From an uncultured Bacteroidota bacterium (GTDB lineage: Bacteria > Bacteroidota > Bacteroidia > Chitinophagales > Saprospiraceae): a DNA stretch of 35,283 nt. Below the pieces are notes generated by a model. It was not told where the DNA came from, searched no databases, and saw only the letters and a list, made by a program, of their open reading frames with translations. A program made the translations under genes and the position numbers. This document shows positions 3,101-35,045 of the stretch, piece by piece. Every line of letters begins with the position of its first letter. The stretch's first letter is position 1. The stretch is from NCBI GenBank assembly GCA_903933805.1, contig CAIZLM010000063.1, positions 1 through 35,283 on the forward strand, in the 5' to 3' direction.

Positions 3101-3186
3101 CCGATGCATTCTGGGCCACTCAAAAAGAACTGCGAAAACGGTTCCCCAATCCCTACGCTTGGGCTGGCTTTGTTCTGTTGGAGTAA
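184..3186 (+). CDS. Secreted TPR-repeat CHAT-domain (caspase-like) protein
   Basis: The 1000-residue protein starts with a Sec signal peptide (about residues 1-22, ending near SYSQA). At least eight 42-residue tetratricopeptide repeats follow (about 60-430) with the recurring NNLA.LY...G.YEKAEPLY pattern. A helical linker (about 560-620, ELEEKVNELEKYL) leads to a C-terminal CHAT domain (about 680-1000). The CHAT His is in HIATHGFF (His836) and the Cys in VLSACETGLG (Cys914), so the caspase-like dyad is intact. CHAT proteins of this type are cysteine peptidases or their relatives; TPRs usually bind a partner. The signal peptide points to the periplasm or exterior. Substrate and partner are unknown. 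The stop codon lies inside the first base pairs of a palindromic element that follows directly. Confidence 0.9.
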   Translation: MRSLTLSLLFFITFSVISYSQAVDTLSISKYLDSLNWVSQNLYKQQNFDKALEINTTAEKMALETFGPVSNKYSNCIELKGTIYVVKGAYPEAEKCYLEAKSIREALQGKHHPRYPASVNNLAVCYLKMGANEKAEPLFVESLEIQEKSAGKDNPSYAKSLNNLANLYRIMRQYEKAEPLYLQSKMILEKTGNQENQEYARCLNNLGELYDKISLFEKAEPLLLQAKTIRGATIGKDNAEYSTSLTSLAVLYGKLGNYEKAIPLCQEALTIREKKLGKESVRYITTLNTLAVLYTQMGNNDVAEQLYLEAKALQEKVRGKVNSENVVVLNNLANLYLDLRRFDKSELLYQEALAIWEKTPDKDLSNYATSLNNLAEFYAKMGQYEKASPFYSEAIAMEFKAVGKEHTNYPLMLLGKANVCEKLFQYDAAAALMLEISELEKAPLLKGISYLSENELALFREKYQSSGNRFSSYMLKRLDKGVDLGVLPAINYDHQLFQRGFLLTAAGRLNVLASLTPETKELTIRLKGYQRQLAAEYSKAIAERNNVNELEEKVNELEKYLSRLVAGYNDAIQQVKWQEVQAALKPTEAAIEFIHFKADFFNNLDSTVYAALILRPGASQPAFVPLFEEKQLDSLLFYVGKRSDIHIKKLYSATNTAVNKQQKSLYDLIWSPLEKNLAGVQSIYFSPSGLLYRLNLAAIPCGTDSVVANKYKLVELGSTRQLVVPEQAITTNKDAVLFGGIKYEMANSVADSTGIGVLGSISRGSLDFSQTDSTLRIGTWGTLPYSEKEIASIGNILKKSGLKPLVFEGSSATEEAFKSLGIGNKPSPRVLHIATHGFFYPDPKITQQKNQLGDPVFRTSDHPMIRSGLLLAGANQAWKTGKPLREGMEDGILTAYEISQMNLSNTELVVLSACETGLGDIQGNEGVYGLQRAFKIAGAKYLIMSLYKVPDRETAEFMAVFYKKWLKDKLPIPDAFWATQKELRKRFPNPYAWAGFVLLE

Positions 3187-3261
3187 CTTGGTTAGCGTGG
3201 TCGCGTCTGGCCCAAAAAGGTCACTTTTTTTGTCTCAGACGCGACCACGATAACCAGTTAC
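3183..3261 (+). mobile_element. Palindromic GTAA-ended MITE-like element, copy 1
   Basis: A 79-bp element whose ends are near-perfect inverted repeats of about 26 bp (GTAACTTGGTTAGCGTGG on the left, the complement ending AACCAGTTAC on the right). The centre holds the GGCCC-AAAAA-GGTC hairpin and a run of seven T. The left end overlaps the stop codon of the CHAT gene, so the element can act as its 3' hairpin. No clear target duplication flanks this copy. Confidence 0.88.
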
Positions 3262-3272
3262 GTAAAATCATT

Positions 3273-3350
3273 GTAACTGGTTAGGTGGCACGCTGTCTGG
3301 CAAAAAATGGCCACTTTTTTGTCTCAGACGCGACCACACTAACCAGTTAC
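3273..3350 (+). mobile_element. Palindromic GTAA-ended MITE-like element, copy 2
   Basis: A 78-bp copy beginning GTAACTGGTTAGGTGGCACG and ending CTAACCAGTTAC. It lies 11 bp after copy 1. The 11-bp sequence GTAAAATCATT occurs immediately before (3262-3272) and immediately after (3351-3361) this copy. That could be a duplication formed with the element or a tandem duplication of element plus flank; it is longer than the 8-bp duplications of other copies. Confidence 0.9.
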
Positions 3351-3405
3351 GTAAAATCATTTAAATCAAATAAATCACTTTAATCATAGTTTAATTTGTG
3401 CGGCA

Positions 3406-6031: not shown

Positions 6032-6108
6032 GTAACTGGCTTGGTGTCACGTGGTTTGTCCCAAAAAGGCCCATTTTGGGCTAGACAGAGTGACACTTCC
6101 GTCGTTAC
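6032..6108 (+). mobile_element. Divergent copy of the palindromic element, copy 3
   Basis: It begins GTAACTGGCTTGGTGTCACG and ends GTGACACTTCCGTCGTTAC, with the same CCCAAAAAGGCCCATTTT core as the other copies. The arms have drifted and no target duplication is left. The right end overlaps the stop codon (6105-6107) of the TrpF-like gene on the minus strand, as copy 1 does at the CHAT gene. Confidence 0.75.
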
Positions 6109-10979: not shown

Positions 10980-11139
10980 GTAACGGGTTCGTTGGTCTCT
11001 CCCGAGACAAAAAGGTGGCTGTTTTTTAGCCAAAACAGTGGATTACTGTAGGCCTTATCAGCCCTACGGTCAATAAAATCAACGAAGTATGGTGGAATAT
11101 GAACCTTTTGTAGGCCTTACAGCGTACTATAAAGGTCGT
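10980..11139 (-). mobile_element. Decayed long-form palindromic element, copy 4
   Basis: In reverse orientation to most copies. It begins GTAACGGGTTCGTTGG, then has GAGACAAAAAGGTGGC, matching the right half of the standard element. It continues with GTAGGCCTTATCAGCC, CTACGGTCAATAAAATC and AACGAAGTATGGTGGAA. This middle part aligns end to end with the extra block inside the copy at 34229-34391. ACAGCGTACTAT near the end matches the opposite arm. The right boundary is approximate. Length (about 160 bp) agrees with the intact long copy. The gap 10962-11245 holds little else. Confidence 0.72.
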
Positions 11140-11245
11140 TTTGATTGATATTCTCCATGAGTATTTGATAACTGTGCGCTTTGATTGCTGTTCATGCCTT
11201 AGCATTACAGCACGTACGGTTTCAGTGTAATCCCCCCCCTTAAAC

Positions 11246-16143: not shown

Positions 16144-16221
16144 GTAACTGGTTAGGTGGCACGCTGTCTGGCAAAAAATGGCCACTTTTTTGTCTCAGAC
16201 GCGACCACGCTAACCAGTTAC
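16144..16221 (+). mobile_element. Palindromic GTAA-ended MITE-like element, copy 5 (between nosD and FAS1)
   Basis: A 78-bp copy beginning GTAACTGGTTAGGTGGCACG and ending CTAACCAGTTAC. The flanking octamers are GGAAATTT (16136-16143) and GCAAATTT (16222-16229), a 7-of-8 target duplication. The T-run side of the inner hairpin faces the plus strand, opposite to nos transcription. Confidence 0.9.
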
Positions 16222-16302: not shown

Positions 16303-17544
16303 TCAAAGGGCCAGCGTCAGCGGAGACATCGATGGTTTTTCATCTAAAAGCAGTTCAGGGGTTAAGGCGGGAATTATTTTTTCGGCTTTGTCCATCAGAT
16401 AGACCATAAAACTTCGCATCAACATCAGACCATACGGCATCCGTTCAACCACCACCGCATACAGGCTCACCGGTCGGAAGGGGACATCCCCCACCCCATC
16501 TCGGTTGAGATCATATCCCTCATAGCGATCCCAATAATTGCTGTCAAAAGAATTAAGTACCAAAGAGCCATTGGTAGAAACATCGAAAGAGTTGCCAAAA
16601 AAGTTGTTCTGACGAATAACATTGGCATCACAACTGGCTTGAACGCGCAAGGCCCAACCATTTTCCCTGAAAACATTTTGCTCCAAGGTGATCCGACTGG
16701 CCCCCTCCATGTAAACTGCTGCTGAATTGTGTTCAAAAGTATTGCGCCAAATGTGGCTGTCAGAAATATCCTTCAGTAGGAGTCCATAAGCAGCGCTTCC
16801 CCAATTGTAGCCAAACTCATTTTCTGTCATTTGTACTTGTCGGGAATACATGACTGCTACCCCGGCCCCATTGTGGTGAAAACGGTTGTGGTGGTAGTGG
16901 TCATTGTGTGAAAACATGAAATGGAGGCCATAGCGGAGGTTGCGCTCGCTGTTGTTGTTCCTGATTTCAGAATCCGTCACAAATTCAAAATAGATGCCGT
17001 CGCGGTGCCCTGTGAGGTAGTTTTCTTCCACCATGATCCGGGCGCATTTCCACAGGTGAATCCCATTGCCACTGTTTTGCTCTTCCTTGATGATGCCTTG
17101 CACATCGTTACAACAAATGCGCGCATCATCGGTGTCTGACAGGTAGATACCAAAGTTACAGTCGCGCAGGCGGTTTTCCTCAATGTTTACATGGTTGGCT
17201 GAAAGCACCTTGATACCCGCAATATCCTTGGTACTGAGCTGCCCGCTGTTACAAATGGCAAAACCACGGATGGTGACGTAAGAAGCGGTAACGGTGATGA
17301 CCTCCGCGAGGTGTTGGCCGTCTAAAACCGGGTAGTTTACACCAAGAAGCGTCAATGGCCGATCAATGGCCAGATTTCCTTCTGCGTATGTGCCCTCATA
17401 AACAACAATGGTATCGCCTGAACGGGCATTGTTCAACGCTGCATGGATCGTCACATAAGGCCGACCAACGCCAACAAGGTGTTCAGTAGCCCACACGGGG
17501 CTCCACAGTACCAACAAGAGCAAAACAAAACGGTATCTCAACAT
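16303..17544 (-). CDS. nosD: Periplasmic copper-binding/maturation protein NosD
   Basis: About 413 residues from ATG 17544, which gives a clean signal peptide (MLRYRFVLLLLVLWSPVWA); the longer frame from 17598 adds an unlikely lead. The body is a right-handed beta-helix with repeated parallel-beta-helix turns such as NHVNIEENRLRDCNFGIYL and ENYLTGHRDGIYF, the carbohydrate-binding/sugar-hydrolase (CASH) fold. The conserved NosD turn NSFDSNYWDRYEGYDLNRDG is near residue 340. NosD works with NosF and NosY in the periplasm and is reported to pass copper to NosZ together with NosL. The gene is 67 bp downstream of the nosL fusion. Confidence 0.93.
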   Translation of the reverse strand: MLRYRFVLLLLVLWSPVWATEHLVGVGRPYVTIHAALNNARSGDTIVVYEGTYAEGNLAIDRPLTLLGVNYPVLDGQHLAEVITVTASYVTIRGFAICNSGQLSTKDIAGIKVLSANHVNIEENRLRDCNFGIYLSDTDDARICCNDVQGIIKEEQNSGNGIHLWKCARIMVEENYLTGHRDGIYFEFVTDSEIRNNNSERNLRYGLHFMFSHNDHYHHNRFHHNGAGVAVMYSRQVQMTENEFGYNWGSAAYGLLLKDISDSHIWRNTFEHNSAAVYMEGASRITLEQNVFRENGWALRVQASCDANVIRQNNFFGNSFDVSTNGSLVLNSFDSNYWDRYEGYDLNRDGVGDVPFRPVSLYAVVVERMPYGLMLMRSFMVYLMDKAEKIIPALTPELLLDEKPSMSPLTLAL

Positions 17545-17611
17545 TTTAATATTGACTGTGCCACAGCGTGTCCGCGGATGTAGCACCACGGCAGACACGC
17601 CACACCTTGTT

Positions 17612-18646
17612 TCAAAACGTATTTTTTACATTTTCCCAAACCATTTCTACCCCGCCACCGATTTGAATTTTCACGGCTTCAAGGTCTATTTTTGATGAAA
17701 AACAGGCAATATCACCGCGCATGGGACTTTTTAAGGCTGCGCTTTGAAGAAAAAATGCCTTCTCCGTCGCCACAAACGAGCCCGGGTTGTTAAAATCAAC
17801 CGAAACGATTTGCGATACCTCCTTTTCTGCTATCCCGCCTTTTTTAAGGTACTCAACCAGACAATTCAGGTCATCGAATTTGAAGACCTTCCCCTTCATG
17901 GTCACAATTTCAGCACCAAAACGCTTGTCGGTTAACGTCATTTTACAATTGGCACACGCATCATGGCCGTAACGAATTGGCTCCGTGGTGGCAGCACAAG
18001 CGCTGAAAAACAGCAGAAAAAACACCGGAGAAAGGCTCAGCATTTTCTGCATTACCAAGCCTCCTTTCAACAATTGCTTTTTATTTTGAAAAAACTCCCA
18101 CCACCACAACAGCGTCGCCATCAAACAAACAGTGATGATGACCCAAGCGCCAATATCCGGACCAGAATACGCGGTGAAATTGAGCAGGTTTTTGTACCCA
18201 ATCAAGGGTGGCTGGTACGACATATCCTGGACTTTGATCGCTGCGTTTGGGTCTAGGTTGTGGCCATATTCATAACCCCAGGACCAAAAATCCCAAAGTG
18301 CTGCTACCGCGTAAACATAAGACAACAACGTGAACACGAACAACATACGAGAGCGTCCCGATATGGCCGTCACCAACCCCACTGCCATCAATAAACCAAC
18401 CAGAATTCCGAGAAATTTGAACTCTGGGAACATCTCCACACTGATATGCTTCATACCGATATAGTGGTTCAGCCCATTGATGATGTCAATTTCACCGGCA
18501 ATTTTGTCAACCCATATTTTCATGGTCAATCCTTCCGGATACTGCGGCGCCCAAAGTAGAATTTGCCAAAGCGGCACAAAAAAAGTAATAACCAATAAGA
18601 TAGAGCCTATCGCAAGCGCGATTCGGGTTGTTTTGCGAAGTATCAT
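17612..18646 (-). CDS. nosL: Four-helix membrane domain fused to copper chaperone NosL
   Basis: About 344 residues from ATG 18646 (MILRKTTRIALAIGS); the longer frame to 18685 starts inside the mobile element and is not real. Residues 1-190 have four membrane segments (near 8-30, 72-92, 98-122, 165-186). NosL begins at about residue 199 (MQKMLSLSP) and still carries a lipoprotein-like signal ending FFSAC, then the copper site region YGHDACANCKM and FDDLNCLVEYL. NosL delivers Cu(I) for NosZ. No stop or frameshift separates the parts, so this is a true fusion or a start-overlap with an internal NosL start at 18052. The former lipobox would lie on the outer side after helix four. Confidence 0.85.
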   Translation of the reverse strand: MILRKTTRIALAIGSILLVITFFVPLWQILLWAPQYPEGLTMKIWVDKIAGEIDIINGLNHYIGMKHISVEMFPEFKFLGILVGLLMAVGLVTAISGRSRMLFVFTLLSYVYAVAALWDFWSWGYEYGHNLDPNAAIKVQDMSYQPPLIGYKNLLNFTAYSGPDIGAWVIITVCLMATLLWWWEFFQNKKQLLKGGLVMQKMLSLSPVFFLLFFSACAATTEPIRYGHDACANCKMTLTDKRFGAEIVTMKGKVFKFDDLNCLVEYLKKGGIAEKEVSQIVSVDFNNPGSFVATEKAFFLQSAALKSPMRGDIACFSSKIDLEAVKIQIGGGVEMVWENVKNTF

Positions 18647-18666
18647 TTTTTTGATATTATGCCGAG

Positions 18667-18744
18667 GTAACTGGTTAGGTGGCACGCCGTCTGGCCAAAA
18701 AAGGCCACTTTTTTGTCTCAGACGCGACCACGCTAACCAGTTCC
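18667..18744 (+). mobile_element. Palindromic GTAA-ended MITE-like element, copy 6 (between nosZ and nosL)
   Basis: A 78-bp copy starting GTAACTGGTTAGGTGGCACG and ending CTAACCAGTTCC (last bases changed from TTAC). It is flanked by an exact 8-bp duplication, ATGCCGAG, at 18659-18666 and 18745-18752. Removing the element and one octamer leaves only 24 bp between nosZ and nosL, a normal operon spacing, which shows the element was inserted into an existing operon. Confidence 0.95.
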
Positions 18745-18756
18745 ATGCCGAGTAAA

Positions 18757-20763
18757 TTACTTTGTCGTTCCAGTGGGTTCGACTTTATTGCCAGTACCGA
18801 AAGACAATGGCACTCCTGAGCCACGGGGTGAAACACGTACATACCCCTGCATTTCCTGGTGCAAGGCGGAACAGAAGTCGGTGCAATAGATCGGAAAAAC
18901 ACCAACCCGATCGGGCACCCATTTGAGGGTACAAGTTTCTCCGGGCATGATGAGAATTTCAGCATTGTTGGCCCCTTTCACAGCAAAACCATGGGGAACA
19001 TCCCAATCTTGCTCGAGGTTTGTTACGTGAAAATACACCTCGTCCCCCATTTTAATGCCTTCAATATTGTCCGGAACAAAGTGTGAGCGAATAGACGTCA
19101 TGTTTACGTGTACCTTATTTCCTTCCCGGAACACCTTGGCTTCCTTCTCGCCTTTGGATACGTAAGGGTGTTGGTTGTCTTCAATTTTGAAAAACTTTAC
19201 CGATTTTGGGGTAATTAGATTTGCCGGGATTGCCTCTGCATAGTGGGGCTCTCCGGTGGTAGGAAAGTCGAGCAAAAGTTTCATTTTGTCGCCGCTGATG
19301 TCATAAAGCTGCGCAGACTGGGTCAATTCAGGACCGGTGGGCAGGTAACGGTCTTTGGTGATTTTATTGTAAGCGATGACATACTTACCCCAAGGTTTAC
19401 GGGTTGGGCCGCCTGGAATACACAAGTGACCAATGGAATAGTATGTCGGAACGCGGTCTACGACCTCGAGTTTTTCGATGTTCCACTTGACAATTTCGGA
19501 AGAGACAAAGAAAGACGTGTAGGCGAAGCCTTTGCCATCAAATTCTGTGTGCAACGGTCCAAGGCCAGGCTTTTTCACTTCCCCGTGTAATACTGCGTCG
19601 TACTTCAACACCGGGATACCATCAAAATCGCCTTCGTAATTTTTTTCGGCGATGGCTTTTTGAATTTTGCTGAAAGAAAAAACCGGAATAACAGCCGCCA
19701 ATTTACCGGAACCACAAATGTATTCACCAGAAGGATCTACATCACAGCCGTGGGGCGATTTTGGGCAAGGCATAAAATACACGATATCTTTCAATTCTTT
19801 TGGATCTAGTACAATGGTTTCCGTTTCAATGGTACTGGTGGCGCTGTGCACCTTATCGTCGTACACATTGTGGGCATAACGAACTTTTGATTTTTTACCC
19901 ATCCCAGCTTTTGCATATTCCTCGCATTTTTTCCAGTTGACAGCCATGATAAAGTCTTTGTCTTTCTGAGAAGCGTTGACCTCCAGCAAGGTATTGGCTT
20001 GTTCGGTGTTGTAACAAGAGAAGAAAAACCAATCGTGTGATGGCCCTCGACCACCACGGCTGAGGTCGAAGTTTACGCCTGGCAGCATCACTTGGAAGCT
20101 AACACCCATGTGGCCAGTTTCAGGGTTTATACCAATAAAGGATACCGTTCCTTTGAAATTCTGTTTGTAGGTGCTGATGGACACATCCGGGTTGGAATTG
20201 TCATCGTCCATGGGATAACTGAAACGCGTACCAGCAACGGCATACTCAGTATTTTCAGTCAGGAACGGGGAAGAGTGATTGCCCGAACTATTGGGTATTT
20301 CAATAATTTCTTCGGTCCGGAATGTACTGAGATTGATGCGGGCGATACGGGGTGTATTGTTCCCATTGACAAAAGCCCAGCGACCGTCGTGTTCGCCATT
20401 GGTGGTAGAAAGCGCGATGTGGTGGGCATCGTCCCAAGGGACAAAGCCGTGGGAGGTATTGAGCATGGGTTTGGTTTCCTCGCTAAAACCCCACCCATTC
20501 TCGGGAAATTGAGAGAAAACAGGGATAATACGCAGCAAACGGCCAGAGGGAATACCATAAACACTCACTTGACCATTGAAACCACCGGAAACGATGTTGT
20601 AAAATTCATCGTACTTGCCGGGAGCAACATACACTTTTTGAGCAGCATCCCCCTCAACAGCAGAAACCGGGTTGTGGGGTTTACAACCAAAAACCAAGGT
20701 CATTATCATACTAAGCAATGAAATTGATGTCAAAGTGTAAAATAGAAAACGGGCATATTTCAT
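18757..20763 (-). CDS. nosZ: Nitrous oxide reductase, Sec-type (clade II)
   Basis: A 668-residue N2O reductase, which reduces N2O to N2 in the periplasm. The signal sequence lacks a twin-arginine motif and ends in a lipoprotein-like VFGC (about residue 27), as in clade II enzymes exported by Sec. The N-terminal seven-bladed propeller holds the CuZ ligands, including WDDAHHIAL and others such as GPSHDW and CPKSPHGCDV. The C-terminal cupredoxin domain binds CuA with VPHGFAV and CTDFCSALHQEM (Cys627, Cys631, His635, Met638). All key CuA residues are present. A haem c protein gene lies 56 bp upstream and is the likely electron donor. Confidence 0.97.
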   Translation of the reverse strand: MKYARFLFYTLTSISLLSMIMTLVFGCKPHNPVSAVEGDAAQKVYVAPGKYDEFYNIVSGGFNGQVSVYGIPSGRLLRIIPVFSQFPENGWGFSEETKPMLNTSHGFVPWDDAHHIALSTTNGEHDGRWAFVNGNNTPRIARINLSTFRTEEIIEIPNSSGNHSSPFLTENTEYAVAGTRFSYPMDDDNSNPDVSISTYKQNFKGTVSFIGINPETGHMGVSFQVMLPGVNFDLSRGGRGPSHDWFFFSCYNTEQANTLLEVNASQKDKDFIMAVNWKKCEEYAKAGMGKKSKVRYAHNVYDDKVHSATSTIETETIVLDPKELKDIVYFMPCPKSPHGCDVDPSGEYICGSGKLAAVIPVFSFSKIQKAIAEKNYEGDFDGIPVLKYDAVLHGEVKKPGLGPLHTEFDGKGFAYTSFFVSSEIVKWNIEKLEVVDRVPTYYSIGHLCIPGGPTRKPWGKYVIAYNKITKDRYLPTGPELTQSAQLYDISGDKMKLLLDFPTTGEPHYAEAIPANLITPKSVKFFKIEDNQHPYVSKGEKEAKVFREGNKVHVNMTSIRSHFVPDNIEGIKMGDEVYFHVTNLEQDWDVPHGFAVKGANNAEILIMPGETCTLKWVPDRVGVFPIYCTDFCSALHQEMQGYVRVSPRGSGVPLSFGTGNKVEPTGTTK

Positions 20764-31208: not shown

Positions 31209-31285
31209 GTAACTGGTTAGGTGGTACGCTGTCAGGCCCAAAAAGCTCCATTTTTTGTATCAGACACGACCATTTAACCCGTTGC
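31209..31285 (+). mobile_element. Palindromic GTAA-ended MITE-like element, copy 8 (between ccoG and ccoH)
   Basis: A 77-bp copy beginning GTAACTGGTTAGGTGGTACG and ending TTTAACCCGTTGC. Both arms have point changes and the inner hairpin is broken (AGGCCC against GCTCCA). No target duplication is visible, so this is an older insertion. Confidence 0.85.
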
Positions 31286-32545: not shown

Positions 32546-32592
32546 GTAACTTTGTCCGATACCATACAACAGCGTGCCAATTAACCAATTAC
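32546..32592. mobile_element. Remnant of an older palindromic element next to copy 9
   Basis: GCGTGCCAATTAACCAATTAC (32572-32592) is the inverted left arm of the family. GTAACTTTG at 32546 may be its other end, giving a 47-bp internally deleted copy. ACAATA flanks it on the left and, once copy 9 is subtracted, ACAATA also on the right. The arm is clear; the left boundary is tentative. TAACTTTG here also matches the -7 promoter consensus. Confidence 0.55.
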
Positions 32593-32597
32593 ACAAT

Positions 32598-32675
32598 GTA
32601 ACTGGTTAATTGGCACGCTGTCTGGCCCAAAAAGGTCCATTTTTTGTCTCAGACGCGACCACGCTAACCAGTTAC
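32598..32675 (+). mobile_element. Palindromic GTAA-ended MITE-like element, copy 9
   Basis: A 78-bp copy beginning GTAACTGGTTAATTGGCACG and ending CTAACCAGTTAC. It is flanked by an exact 8-bp duplication, TACACAAT, at 32590-32597 and 32676-32683. The left octamer includes the last bases of an older element, so this copy inserted beside or into it. It ends 11 bp before the next gene and would be in its 5' leader. Confidence 0.95.
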
Positions 32676-33521: not shown

Positions 33522-34193
33522 TTATTCCAGCAATGACGCTCCGTTTAAATCCGTCGTCAGCACCGTACTCAAGTAGTTGAAAAAGGGACGCATCGCTTCG
33601 AAGGTCAGTTTCACGTCCAGCAGAAAATGATCACTGGTCACCGCATGGTCTGTCATATTACGCTGCACGATAAAACTCTTTTTGCGGATCAGATCCAAAG
33701 CAGGACTGTCCTTGTCATAGCCCCTGGGCGCCGTTTTTAATGTATCGCCTTGTATCGTTCCAAAATATTGCTGAAAGGTTGGATCGGCGATAATTTGGCG
33801 GATGGGCATTTCGTCTGCTGCAAATTCGTCGCGAATGCGCTTAAGGTCTGCCGGGTTCGGCTGCCAAAAGCCACCGCCTATAAAAGATGCGCCTGGTTCG
33901 ATGTGTAAATAATACCCGCCACGCAGTCGCTTGGTAGCCCTGGTGAAGCCCATCCCAAAGTTGTTTTTATATGGCAATTTGTCTTTGGAGAACCGCACAT
34001 CTCTATAAATTCGAAAAAGTGTAGCACCCTCCAAGTGGTCTTTTTCACCCAAAGCAGCTTCAACTGCTTTCAAAAACTGCTTCATGTTTTCTTGAGCAGC
34101 CTCATACCGACTTTTGTTGGCTTGAAACCAGTCCCGGTCGTTGTTGTTGGAAAGGTCTTCCAGGAATTGCAATGTAGCGGGTGAAATTTTCAT
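33522..34193 (-). CDS. DUF2461 (TIGR02453-type) family protein
   Basis: About 223 residues from ATG 34193 (MKISPATLQFLEDLSNN); the longer frame to 34271 begins in the mobile element and is not real. Family features are NNDRDWFQANKSRYEAA near the N-terminus, LFRIYRDVRFSKDKLPYK (about 60-78) and GGYYLHIEPGASFIGGGFW. No signal peptide. The molecular function of the family is not known. It converges with the acyltransferase gene 25 bp away. Confidence 0.88.
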   Translation of the reverse strand: MKISPATLQFLEDLSNNNDRDWFQANKSRYEAAQENMKQFLKAVEAALGEKDHLEGATLFRIYRDVRFSKDKLPYKNNFGMGFTRATKRLRGGYYLHIEPGASFIGGGFWQPNPADLKRIRDEFAADEMPIRQIIADPTFQQYFGTIQGDTLKTAPRGYDKDSPALDLIRKKSFIVQRNMTDHAVTSDHFLLDVKLTFEAMRPFFNYLSTVLTTDLNGASLLE

Positions 34194-34228
34194 GCGAATG
34201 GTCGGTTGAACAATGGTAATCAATGGAC

Positions 34229-34391
34229 GTAAATGGTTAGGTGGCACGCTGTCTGGCCCAAAAAGGCCCATTTTCCGCCATACTTCGCATATTTTTTTGA
34301 CCGTAGCGCTGCTACGGCCTACAAAAATCTGCTTCGTCTGACAAAAAATGGCCGCTTTTTTGCCTCAGACGCGACCAAGCTAACCAGTTAC
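34229..34391 (+). mobile_element. Long-form palindromic element with exact target duplication, copy 10
   Basis: A 163-bp element. Its left end, GTAAATGGTTAGGTGGCACG, and right end, CTAACCAGTTAC, are those of the 78-bp copies. An extra block (about 34275-34344) carries the hairpin CCGTAGC-GCT-GCTACGG (34301-34317) and CGCCATACTTCGCATATTT. An exact 8-bp duplication, CAATGGAC, flanks it (34221-34228 and 34392-34399). The intact ends and duplication show that this longer form moved as a unit. The rest of the gap to 34547 holds no visible feature. Confidence 0.93.
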
Positions 34392-34547
34392 CAATGGACA
34401 AATATAGCGCTTTGACTGTAAAAAAAGTCTGTGCTACCCATCAGGTGAAAAACAACCGAATTAGAGCGACCTGTTTTTTCGTAATCGATACAGCCGAAAG
34501 GGGGAATGTGAGGGCTATTGGCCGGCGATAGCGCTGAACAGGCCTGT

Positions 34548-35045
34548 TCAAAAGTGCTTAAAATACTCAAATGGCTCTTTACATACATTGCAAGAATACA
34601 ATGATTTACAGGCCGTTGCGCCAAATTGGCTTACCAAAGTGGTGGTTTCAGCGCCACAACGCGGGCAGGGAACCGGTGGTGGCATTTCAAATGGATCACT
34701 ATCTTCTGAGCACATCACCGGTGGTGCGATGCCGTATTGACGCAGCTTTTCTTTAGCTTCCGGGGTTAGCCAATCGGTGGTCCAGGCAGGCGCATAAACT
34801 GTACTGATTTCGAGGTTGTCAAAGCCTTGTTCGTGCATGGCTGCCTTGATTTCAGCGACGAAGAGGTGCATGGCCGGGCACCCAGTATAGGTGGGCGTGA
34901 TGGTAATTTTAAGTTTTTTTCCGTCCCACTGAACATCCCGGACCACACCCAATTCAACGATAGAAATCACTGGAATTTCAGGATCTGGAATCAATGCAAT
35001 GCGTTCCCAAATGAGTTCCTCTACAGCTGACCGACTGGTATCCAT
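34548..35045 (-). CDS. paaD: Phenylacetyl-CoA epoxidase subunit PaaD
   Basis: About 165 residues from ATG 35045 (MDTSRSAVEELIWERI); a GTG at 35102 overlapping the paaC stop is a possible alternative. The MIP18/DUF59-type domain has IPDPEIPVISIVELGVVRD and PTYTGCPAMHLF. The C-terminal zinc-ribbon-like part has CPRCG and CNVC. PaaD helps assemble or maintain the PaaABCE epoxidase, which opens phenylacetyl-CoA degradation. The order paaC-paaD on the minus strand fits a paa operon running in from the right edge. Confidence 0.93.
   Translation of the reverse strand: MDTSRSAVEELIWERIALIPDPEIPVISIVELGVVRDVQWDGKKLKITITPTYTGCPAMHLFVAEIKAAMHEQGFDNLEISTVYAPAWTTDWLTPEAKEKLRQYGIAPPVMCSEDSDPFEMPPPVPCPRCGAETTTLVSQFGATACKSLYSCNVCKEPFEYFKHF

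Follow-up and report, generated by a model that had tools for sequence, protein, structure and literature searches.

Elements in the window

The window, i.e. the whole stretch of 35,283 nucleotides analysed here, carries at positions 34229-34391 (plus strand) the long form of a MITE, 163 bp in length and devoid of a transposase gene, whose left end reads GTAAATGGTTAG and whose right end reads, as complement, GTAACTGGTTAGC. Between the ends lies a conserved hairpin core (34255-34364, plus strand) with the apex CCGTAGC-GCT-GCTACGG, which scored 117.5 bits with covariance model R1 (see below). The unit is bordered by an exact 8-bp target duplication, CAATGGAC, at 34221-34228 and 34392-34399; the family ends, the hairpin middle and the exact duplication on both sides had all been noted before and were confirmed. 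Inverted-repeat ends, target duplication and a large number of copies are those of a MITE. The neighbouring protein belongs to family TIGR02453.

A second, decayed long copy is located at 10980-11139 in the opposite orientation (minus strand). Its identification as an older, full-length relative of the long form was supported by alignment and by the core model. The reverse complement of 10980-11149 shared 127 identities with the long consensus over 177 alignment columns (score 72.5), compared to -9.2 +/- 4.8 and a largest value of 6.5 in 200 mononucleotide shuffles. The copy was likewise detected with a covariance model restricted to the middle (11006-11115, minus strand, 49.5 bits, E 2.6e-7 in 439,539 bases).

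The other relatives in the window are short and lie on the plus strand. Forms of 78 bp are found at 3273-3350, 16144-16221, 18667-18744 and 32598-32675, the latter being flanked by the 8-bp duplication TACACAAT and having a different deletion junction. The short form at 31209-31285 has a diverged right end, and the short copy at 6032-6108 is decayed. Another short copy (3183-3261) adjoins the one at 3273-3350, and within 3183-3361 the sequence GTAAAATCAT follows each of the two. The second is flanked by a repeat of at least 10 bp and not 8 bp, which suggests that the element was duplicated in tandem together with its flank. Nitrous oxide reductase genes, including those for a Sec-dependent NosZ and for NosD (NCBIfam), occupy 16303-20763; the copy at 16144-16221 lies nearby and that at 18667-18744 among the nos genes.

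Copy number and insertion in the source genome

The original prediction of a long family depended on further long copies in the genome from which the window derives (G000; 4.2 Mb, 336 contigs), and these were found. About 44 were recovered by a DNA similarity search, in most cases with 93-96% identity to the query, and the core covariance model detected at least 91 core-bearing copies. The end pattern, allowing one mismatch at most, occurred at 718 sites in this genome versus one for the reversed pattern. Forty-five long copies were extracted, 42 of them with readable flanks; the 8-bp duplication was perfect in 19 of these 42 and had one mismatch in 8 more, which bears out the claim that the long form moves as a unit.

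Elements were also counted in a sample of 434,626 bases consisting of the window and twenty 20-kb stretches, some of which were picked for containing known copies. Besides 68 single ends and 43 strand-best core matches above 80 bits, it held 63 paired elements, the majority measuring 75-80 or 159-165 bp. Perfect duplications were present at 16 of 37 long elements and at 5 of 24 elements shorter than 100 bp; judged by these flanks, long and short forms both appear to be mobile.

Spacers between neighbouring element ends had their mode at 8 bp (17 of 31 spacers of 0-40 bp, with some loci overlapping). Where the spacer measured 7-9 bp (15 distinct pairs), it was exactly 8 bp long in 13, and in 12 of those its sequence recurred, with no more than one mismatch, at the far flank of one of the two partners. 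This implies that the 8 bp abutting an existing end often served as target for a new copy. In individual cases, adjacent copies may have arisen via a tandem duplication made by recombination.

Origin of the short form

Two relationships between the forms had been considered, namely that the 78-bp form is an internal deletion of the long form or that the long form is a stable second subfamily. The former is better supported, as short copies fit the 163-bp consensus minus 85 bp. The long consensus contains two imperfect direct repeats (15 of 20 positions identical) spaced exactly 85 bp apart, and the core would be removed by deletion between them. Of 22 short copies in the sample, two (the one at 16144-16221 in the window, the other in L111) are identical to the consensus minus exactly 85 bp. 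Eleven fit this model at 95% or better and the remaining 11 at 62-91%; the copy at 3273-3350 is explained to 99%. In well-fitting copies the junctions fall at positions 22-29, 29-30, 31-36, 37 or 42-46, all inside the repeat pair. Such scattered junctions, together with the range of fits, are expected from repeated deletion between the repeats followed by decay. Short forms were also present in related genomes, with GACTTG ends and lengths of 59-60 bp and 80 bp (G007, G009 and G022) or with GTAAC ends and a length of 79 bp (G025).

Distribution of the core in related genomes

Model R1 covers 110 positions, excludes the ends and was built from 33 cores. At E <= 0.001, and with the source genome counted each time, it matched in 36 of 42 genomes of the genus, 25 of 198 of the order and 9 of 395 of the phylum, six of the latter being from one family of the same class. 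Outside the genus the distribution is patchy. As 386 phylum genomes gave no match, R1 does not simply pick up any hairpin. For the most distant cores, scoring 40-50 bits, partial convergence is conceivable. In a DNA search of 60 relatives, matches were obtained in 10, including the source genome, and often comprised the middle only. Going by these matches, the widely shared part of the element is the middle and not the ends.

Core matches were generally closed by inverted repeats lying outside R1. This was the case for 93 of 98 matches with enough flank (drawn from 101, with two elements entered twice) versus 4 of 490 shuffled right-flank controls. Total element length was 161-164 bp in 72 of the 93 closed elements. 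Among the matches listed, 32 of 40 exact AGAGC end pairs spanned exactly 163 bp and 27 of 37 exact GACTTG pairs exactly 164 bp. Some genomes contain tens to hundreds of copies. The one-contig genome G335, from the same class, harbours core elements of 161-162 bp (L324, L337, L341 and L345) with GAAGTGGTTTAAAC-type ends, three of them nearly identical; their 3-bp TAT/ATA duplications were read by eye.

End types and candidate transposases

The delimited relatives are whole hairpins of near-equal length with different ends, namely GTAAATACTTAGCCC, GTAACTATCCAG, TAGACTTGTTGCGG, TAAGTACC and AGAGCTTGTTCAGG. Several GTAA-ended elements outside the source genome (L114, L125, L128 and L131) have a perfect 8-bp duplication. 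A 3-bp TAA/TTA duplication flanks 19 of 25 GAG-type elements, a count in which L147 and L230 are the same element counted twice. At GACTTG elements, TA was found in 15 of 17 cases, the TA/TA pair being indistinguishable from part of the inverted repeat. Target duplications of 8, 3 and 2 bp combined with inverted repeats are products of DDE transposases.

These features bear on the idea that the element is of the REP/RAYT type, with a tyrosine (HUH) transposase recognising the hairpin. Like REPs, the element is palindromic and mostly intergenic, and it has GTAG in its apex stem. It differs in length, in its inverted-repeat ends and in its target duplications: REPs are described as sequences of 20-40 bp with GTAG at one end (PMC3733652), whereas the element has 163 bp and GTAA ends, and the superfamily has GTAA, GAG or GACTTG inverted repeats with duplications of 8, 3 or 2 bp. 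We regard a REP/RAYT origin as highly improbable.

With its GTAA ends and 8-bp duplication, the MITE carries what is expected of an IS66-derived MITE; we take both to be traits of the IS66 family. GTAA ends are shared by a resident 2419-bp IS66 (C216; L081 611-3029), which is flanked by a perfect 8-bp duplication, CACCGGGA, but beyond GTAA its ends are unlike those of the MITE. The comparison is with the single-ORF, ISBst12-like members of the family. In the sister genome G025, a 1050-bp unit with a match to PF03050 (IS66; 75.5 bits) has GTAACTGGTTAGCCT ends on both sides, which are identical to the right end of the MITE over 13 bases. Since the GTAA ends and the 8-bp duplication recur in the resident IS66 and the same ends occur on the G025 unit, the ends point to IS66. 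The MITE differs from an IS66 element in having no transposase inside, and other members of the superfamily lack IS66-type ends.

The G025 unit looks shortened and is probably defective, with a reading frame of 333 aa versus 453 aa in L011. Its 8-bp flanks agree at 6 of 8 bases. This degenerate unit was the only IS whose ends matched those of the MITE, and no intact transposase gene with GTAACTGGTTAG ends was found at the loci examined. PF03050 had no match in five of six GTAA-element-bearing genomes searched (G014, G012, G003, G205 and G069). The resident IS66 copies were rejected as partners: the ends, read in two of three, differ from the MITE in C216 and C180, and C186 is undelimited. A 1441-bp IS66-family copy of the source genome lacks a clear duplication; a core element of G012 agrees with it at 16 of 16 bases of the right end (GTAACTATCCAGCCGC) and at 15 of 16 of the left end.

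A second transposase family is tied to the GACTTG type, the ends of which (TAGACTTGTTGCGGTG) form both ends of a 982-bp IS in G064. Its two reading frames match HTH_Tnp_4 (below the cut-off) and DDE_Tnp_4 (above the cut-off), and we take this IS to be IS5-like. Among the loci searched, no partners were found for GAG, AAGTACC and GAAGTG ends; the transposase families tied to ends number two. Long units with various end types comprised 13 pairs, of which L011 and L201 were judged credible and the others were dismissed by eye. The best partner candidate, L352, was found apart from this search.

Disagreement between cores and ends

Kinship was compared separately for interiors and ends. L120 (G003) and L128 (G014) have interiors that are 0.89 identical and ends that are 0.67 identical, whereas the consensus of the source genome agrees with L128 at 0.83 in the ends and at 0.68 in the interior. 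The ends of L124 (G003) match L140 at 0.89; its interior is closer to the source consensus (0.70) than to L140 (0.59), a contrast that amounts by itself to about two standard errors only. By these identities, interior and ends disagree on kinship. In G009, moreover, a 173-bp insert (L202, 233-405) is nested in a GACTTG-ended element. It has GTAAAAACTTAG ends, and its 8-bp target duplication, CAATTCCC, is perfect; its position and flanks show two end types of the wider group active in one place.

A core tree of 101 rows and 110 columns, weakly resolved and with end labels assigned from patterns, requires a minimum of 17 changes among the five named end classes; this count leaves aside 14 rows labelled 'other', and with them it rises to 30. 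Both counts are rough, as L121, L122, L253 and L256 were binned as GTAA despite different outer ends and the GTAA-ended L116, L127 and L258 are in 'other'. Four of the five named classes cluster on the tree, the exception being GAAGTG.

This clustering would suit another explanation, in which each species has an ordinary MITE family derived from its own IS, the middles are alike through convergence of A/T-rich hairpins, and ends were never exchanged. Descent from one parental IS is common among MITEs and, all elements here being near-palindromes, any two of them will share some features. What such convergence does not lead one to expect is a conserved core sequence that largely retains its strand asymmetry whatever the end class, or a model that remains unmatched in 386 of 395 phylum genomes. 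In addition, the interiors of the source consensus and L124 are 0.70 identical versus 0.49 +/- 0.02 when shuffled, despite different ends and duplication type. We therefore consider independent ordinary MITE families quite unlikely.

Folding, covariation and gene context

The 163-bp unit folded, as single-stranded DNA, far better than shuffled sequences (-35.3 versus -19.0 +/- 2.9 kcal/mol; z -5.5), in agreement with the structured middle proposed originally. Paired substitutions were also looked for, with arm pairing taken either from the structure of the source consensus or from a structure-fitted alignment, which leans towards the structure. Pairing cells made up 72.6% of the first alignment, whose covariation score of 0.166 (0.086 in shuffles) was reached by none of 500 shuffles; two of five measures did not exceed shuffles, with values as high in 53 of 500 for pairs changed on both sides and in 314 of 500 for further pair types. 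Sliding this alignment by -1 gave more double-change cells (87 versus 76), while paired cells fell to 61.9% and the score decreased. RNAalifold recovered only four apex-stem pairs from a MAFFT alignment. The model-fitted alignment, with its bias towards the structure, has 77 rows from 60 genomes, one or two from each; in it 81.7% of cells pair versus 61.2% in shuffles and 58.7% in the best slid version, and 559 double-change cells contrast with 187 +/- 11 in shuffles. Runs of T and of A, together with the AGC/GCTA of the apex, are conserved in the core in this alignment; conservation was 0.56 in unpaired and 0.68 in paired columns.

The apex palindrome has arms of 7 bp in the consensus and is perfect with arms of 17-18 bp in 5 of 72 unique long copies (two of the five being near-copies of each other), and arms of 8-16 bp do not occur. 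In one long copy, the right end stands, inverted, in place of the left end as well. Both the long-arm apexes and the swapped end look, from their sequence, like one-step template switches between arms. Template switching within hairpins is a described mechanism (PMC8794818). Covariation is no proof of function here, since copying from one arm to the other can produce it in the absence of selection.

Gene context of 36 long copies in the sample, determined with crude longest-ORF gene calls (at least 110 aa), was nothing special compared to gaps generally: 20 copies were in tandem, 7 in divergent and 4 in convergent contexts, 3 inside ORFs and 2 at edges, and gaps in general comprised 181 tandem, 48 divergent and 59 convergent ones. 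No terminator-like site was found in 33900-34700, and Rfam covariance models gave no match up to E 1 in the same region, a scan covering this one copy. Given the ordinary context and the lack of a terminator-like site in that region, a terminator or insulator role was dropped.

These data also bear on whether the core is a functional RNA or single-stranded DNA structure of the host or of the element (a regulator, a processing site or a protein binding site) that is merely spread by MITE ends. The excess of compensatory changes in the structure-fitted alignment and the conserved T/A tracts and apex would be in keeping with such a function. However, arm-to-arm copying (PMC8794818) offers a source of covariation that needs no selection, paired columns are better conserved than unpaired ones, core-less short copies are common and also have target duplications, and neither gene context nor the region 33900-34700 revealed anything remarkable. 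A functional core of this kind seems unlikely, though less so than separate ordinary MITE families.

Proposed mobilisation and comparison with known elements

On balance, the unit is a MITE that probably represents one branch of a wider superfamily, in which the structured core is conserved and the ends are exchangeable, and that is probably mobilised by an IS66-family transposase acting in trans. What the sequences show is insertion as a unit with 8-bp duplications, a common core with differing ends and duplication lengths, insertion sequences whose ends match, junctions of internal deletions, and tracts apparently copied between arms; mobilisation in trans, the route of end exchange and the reason for retaining core and length are inferences. 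The transposase would recognise the GTAACTGGTTAG ends and would cut and join the MITE in trans, leaving the 8-bp target duplication. The hairpin core of about 110 bp, within an element of almost constant length (161-164 bp), would pass between ends that belong to two or more families of DDE transposases, IS66 and one with a DDE_Tnp_4 domain among them. As a possible route, template switching within the hairpin would copy changes from arm to arm and thereby keep both ends matched; the matched ends might then drift to, or be replaced by, the ends of another transposase. Core and length may have been kept because they are helpful to the mobility or survival of the element.

NEMIS and Correia are further bacterial MITEs. 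Common traits are that they are short and gene-free, have terminal inverted repeats, reach high copy numbers and are mostly intergenic. MITECca01 of Cardinium is tied to one parental IS982-family element (PMC9769881). Here, by contrast, the interior is common to different species and is joined to the ends of different transposase families. A MITE as such is a known kind of element. No description of a comparable core with exchangeable ends was found in the open-access literature searched.

The nearest analogy is with CORE-SINEs and V-SINEs, RNA-based eukaryotic retroposons in which interchangeable ends, through which various mobilising partners are recruited, are attached to a conserved central domain. 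The likeness is one of logic and implies no membership, as the element described here is DNA with DDE-type ends. More tentatively, and somewhat short of what we would call probable, the superfamily could be a patchily distributed counterpart of CORE-SINEs in Bacteroidota, with an old 110-bp core in an element of 161-164 bp, repeated end changes to exploit several DDE families, template switching, and a core kept for a function that the element needs.

MITEs are usually viewed as dead-end derivatives, each of one parental insertion sequence. If the core persists across bacterial families while the ends change, a DNA parasite without any gene can exchange the enzyme on which its movement depends, in the manner of some SINEs. 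This raises the question why a hairpin core and a length of about 163 bp are kept when core-less forms of 59-80 bp spread too. Genomes with tens to hundreds of copies offer a rich record of template switching in hairpins.

Finally, at 32569-32675 in the window, an inverted 24-bp copy of the left end is located 5 bp before the short copy 32598-32675. A private AATT variant is present in both, and the arrangement looks like an inverted duplication produced by a template switch.
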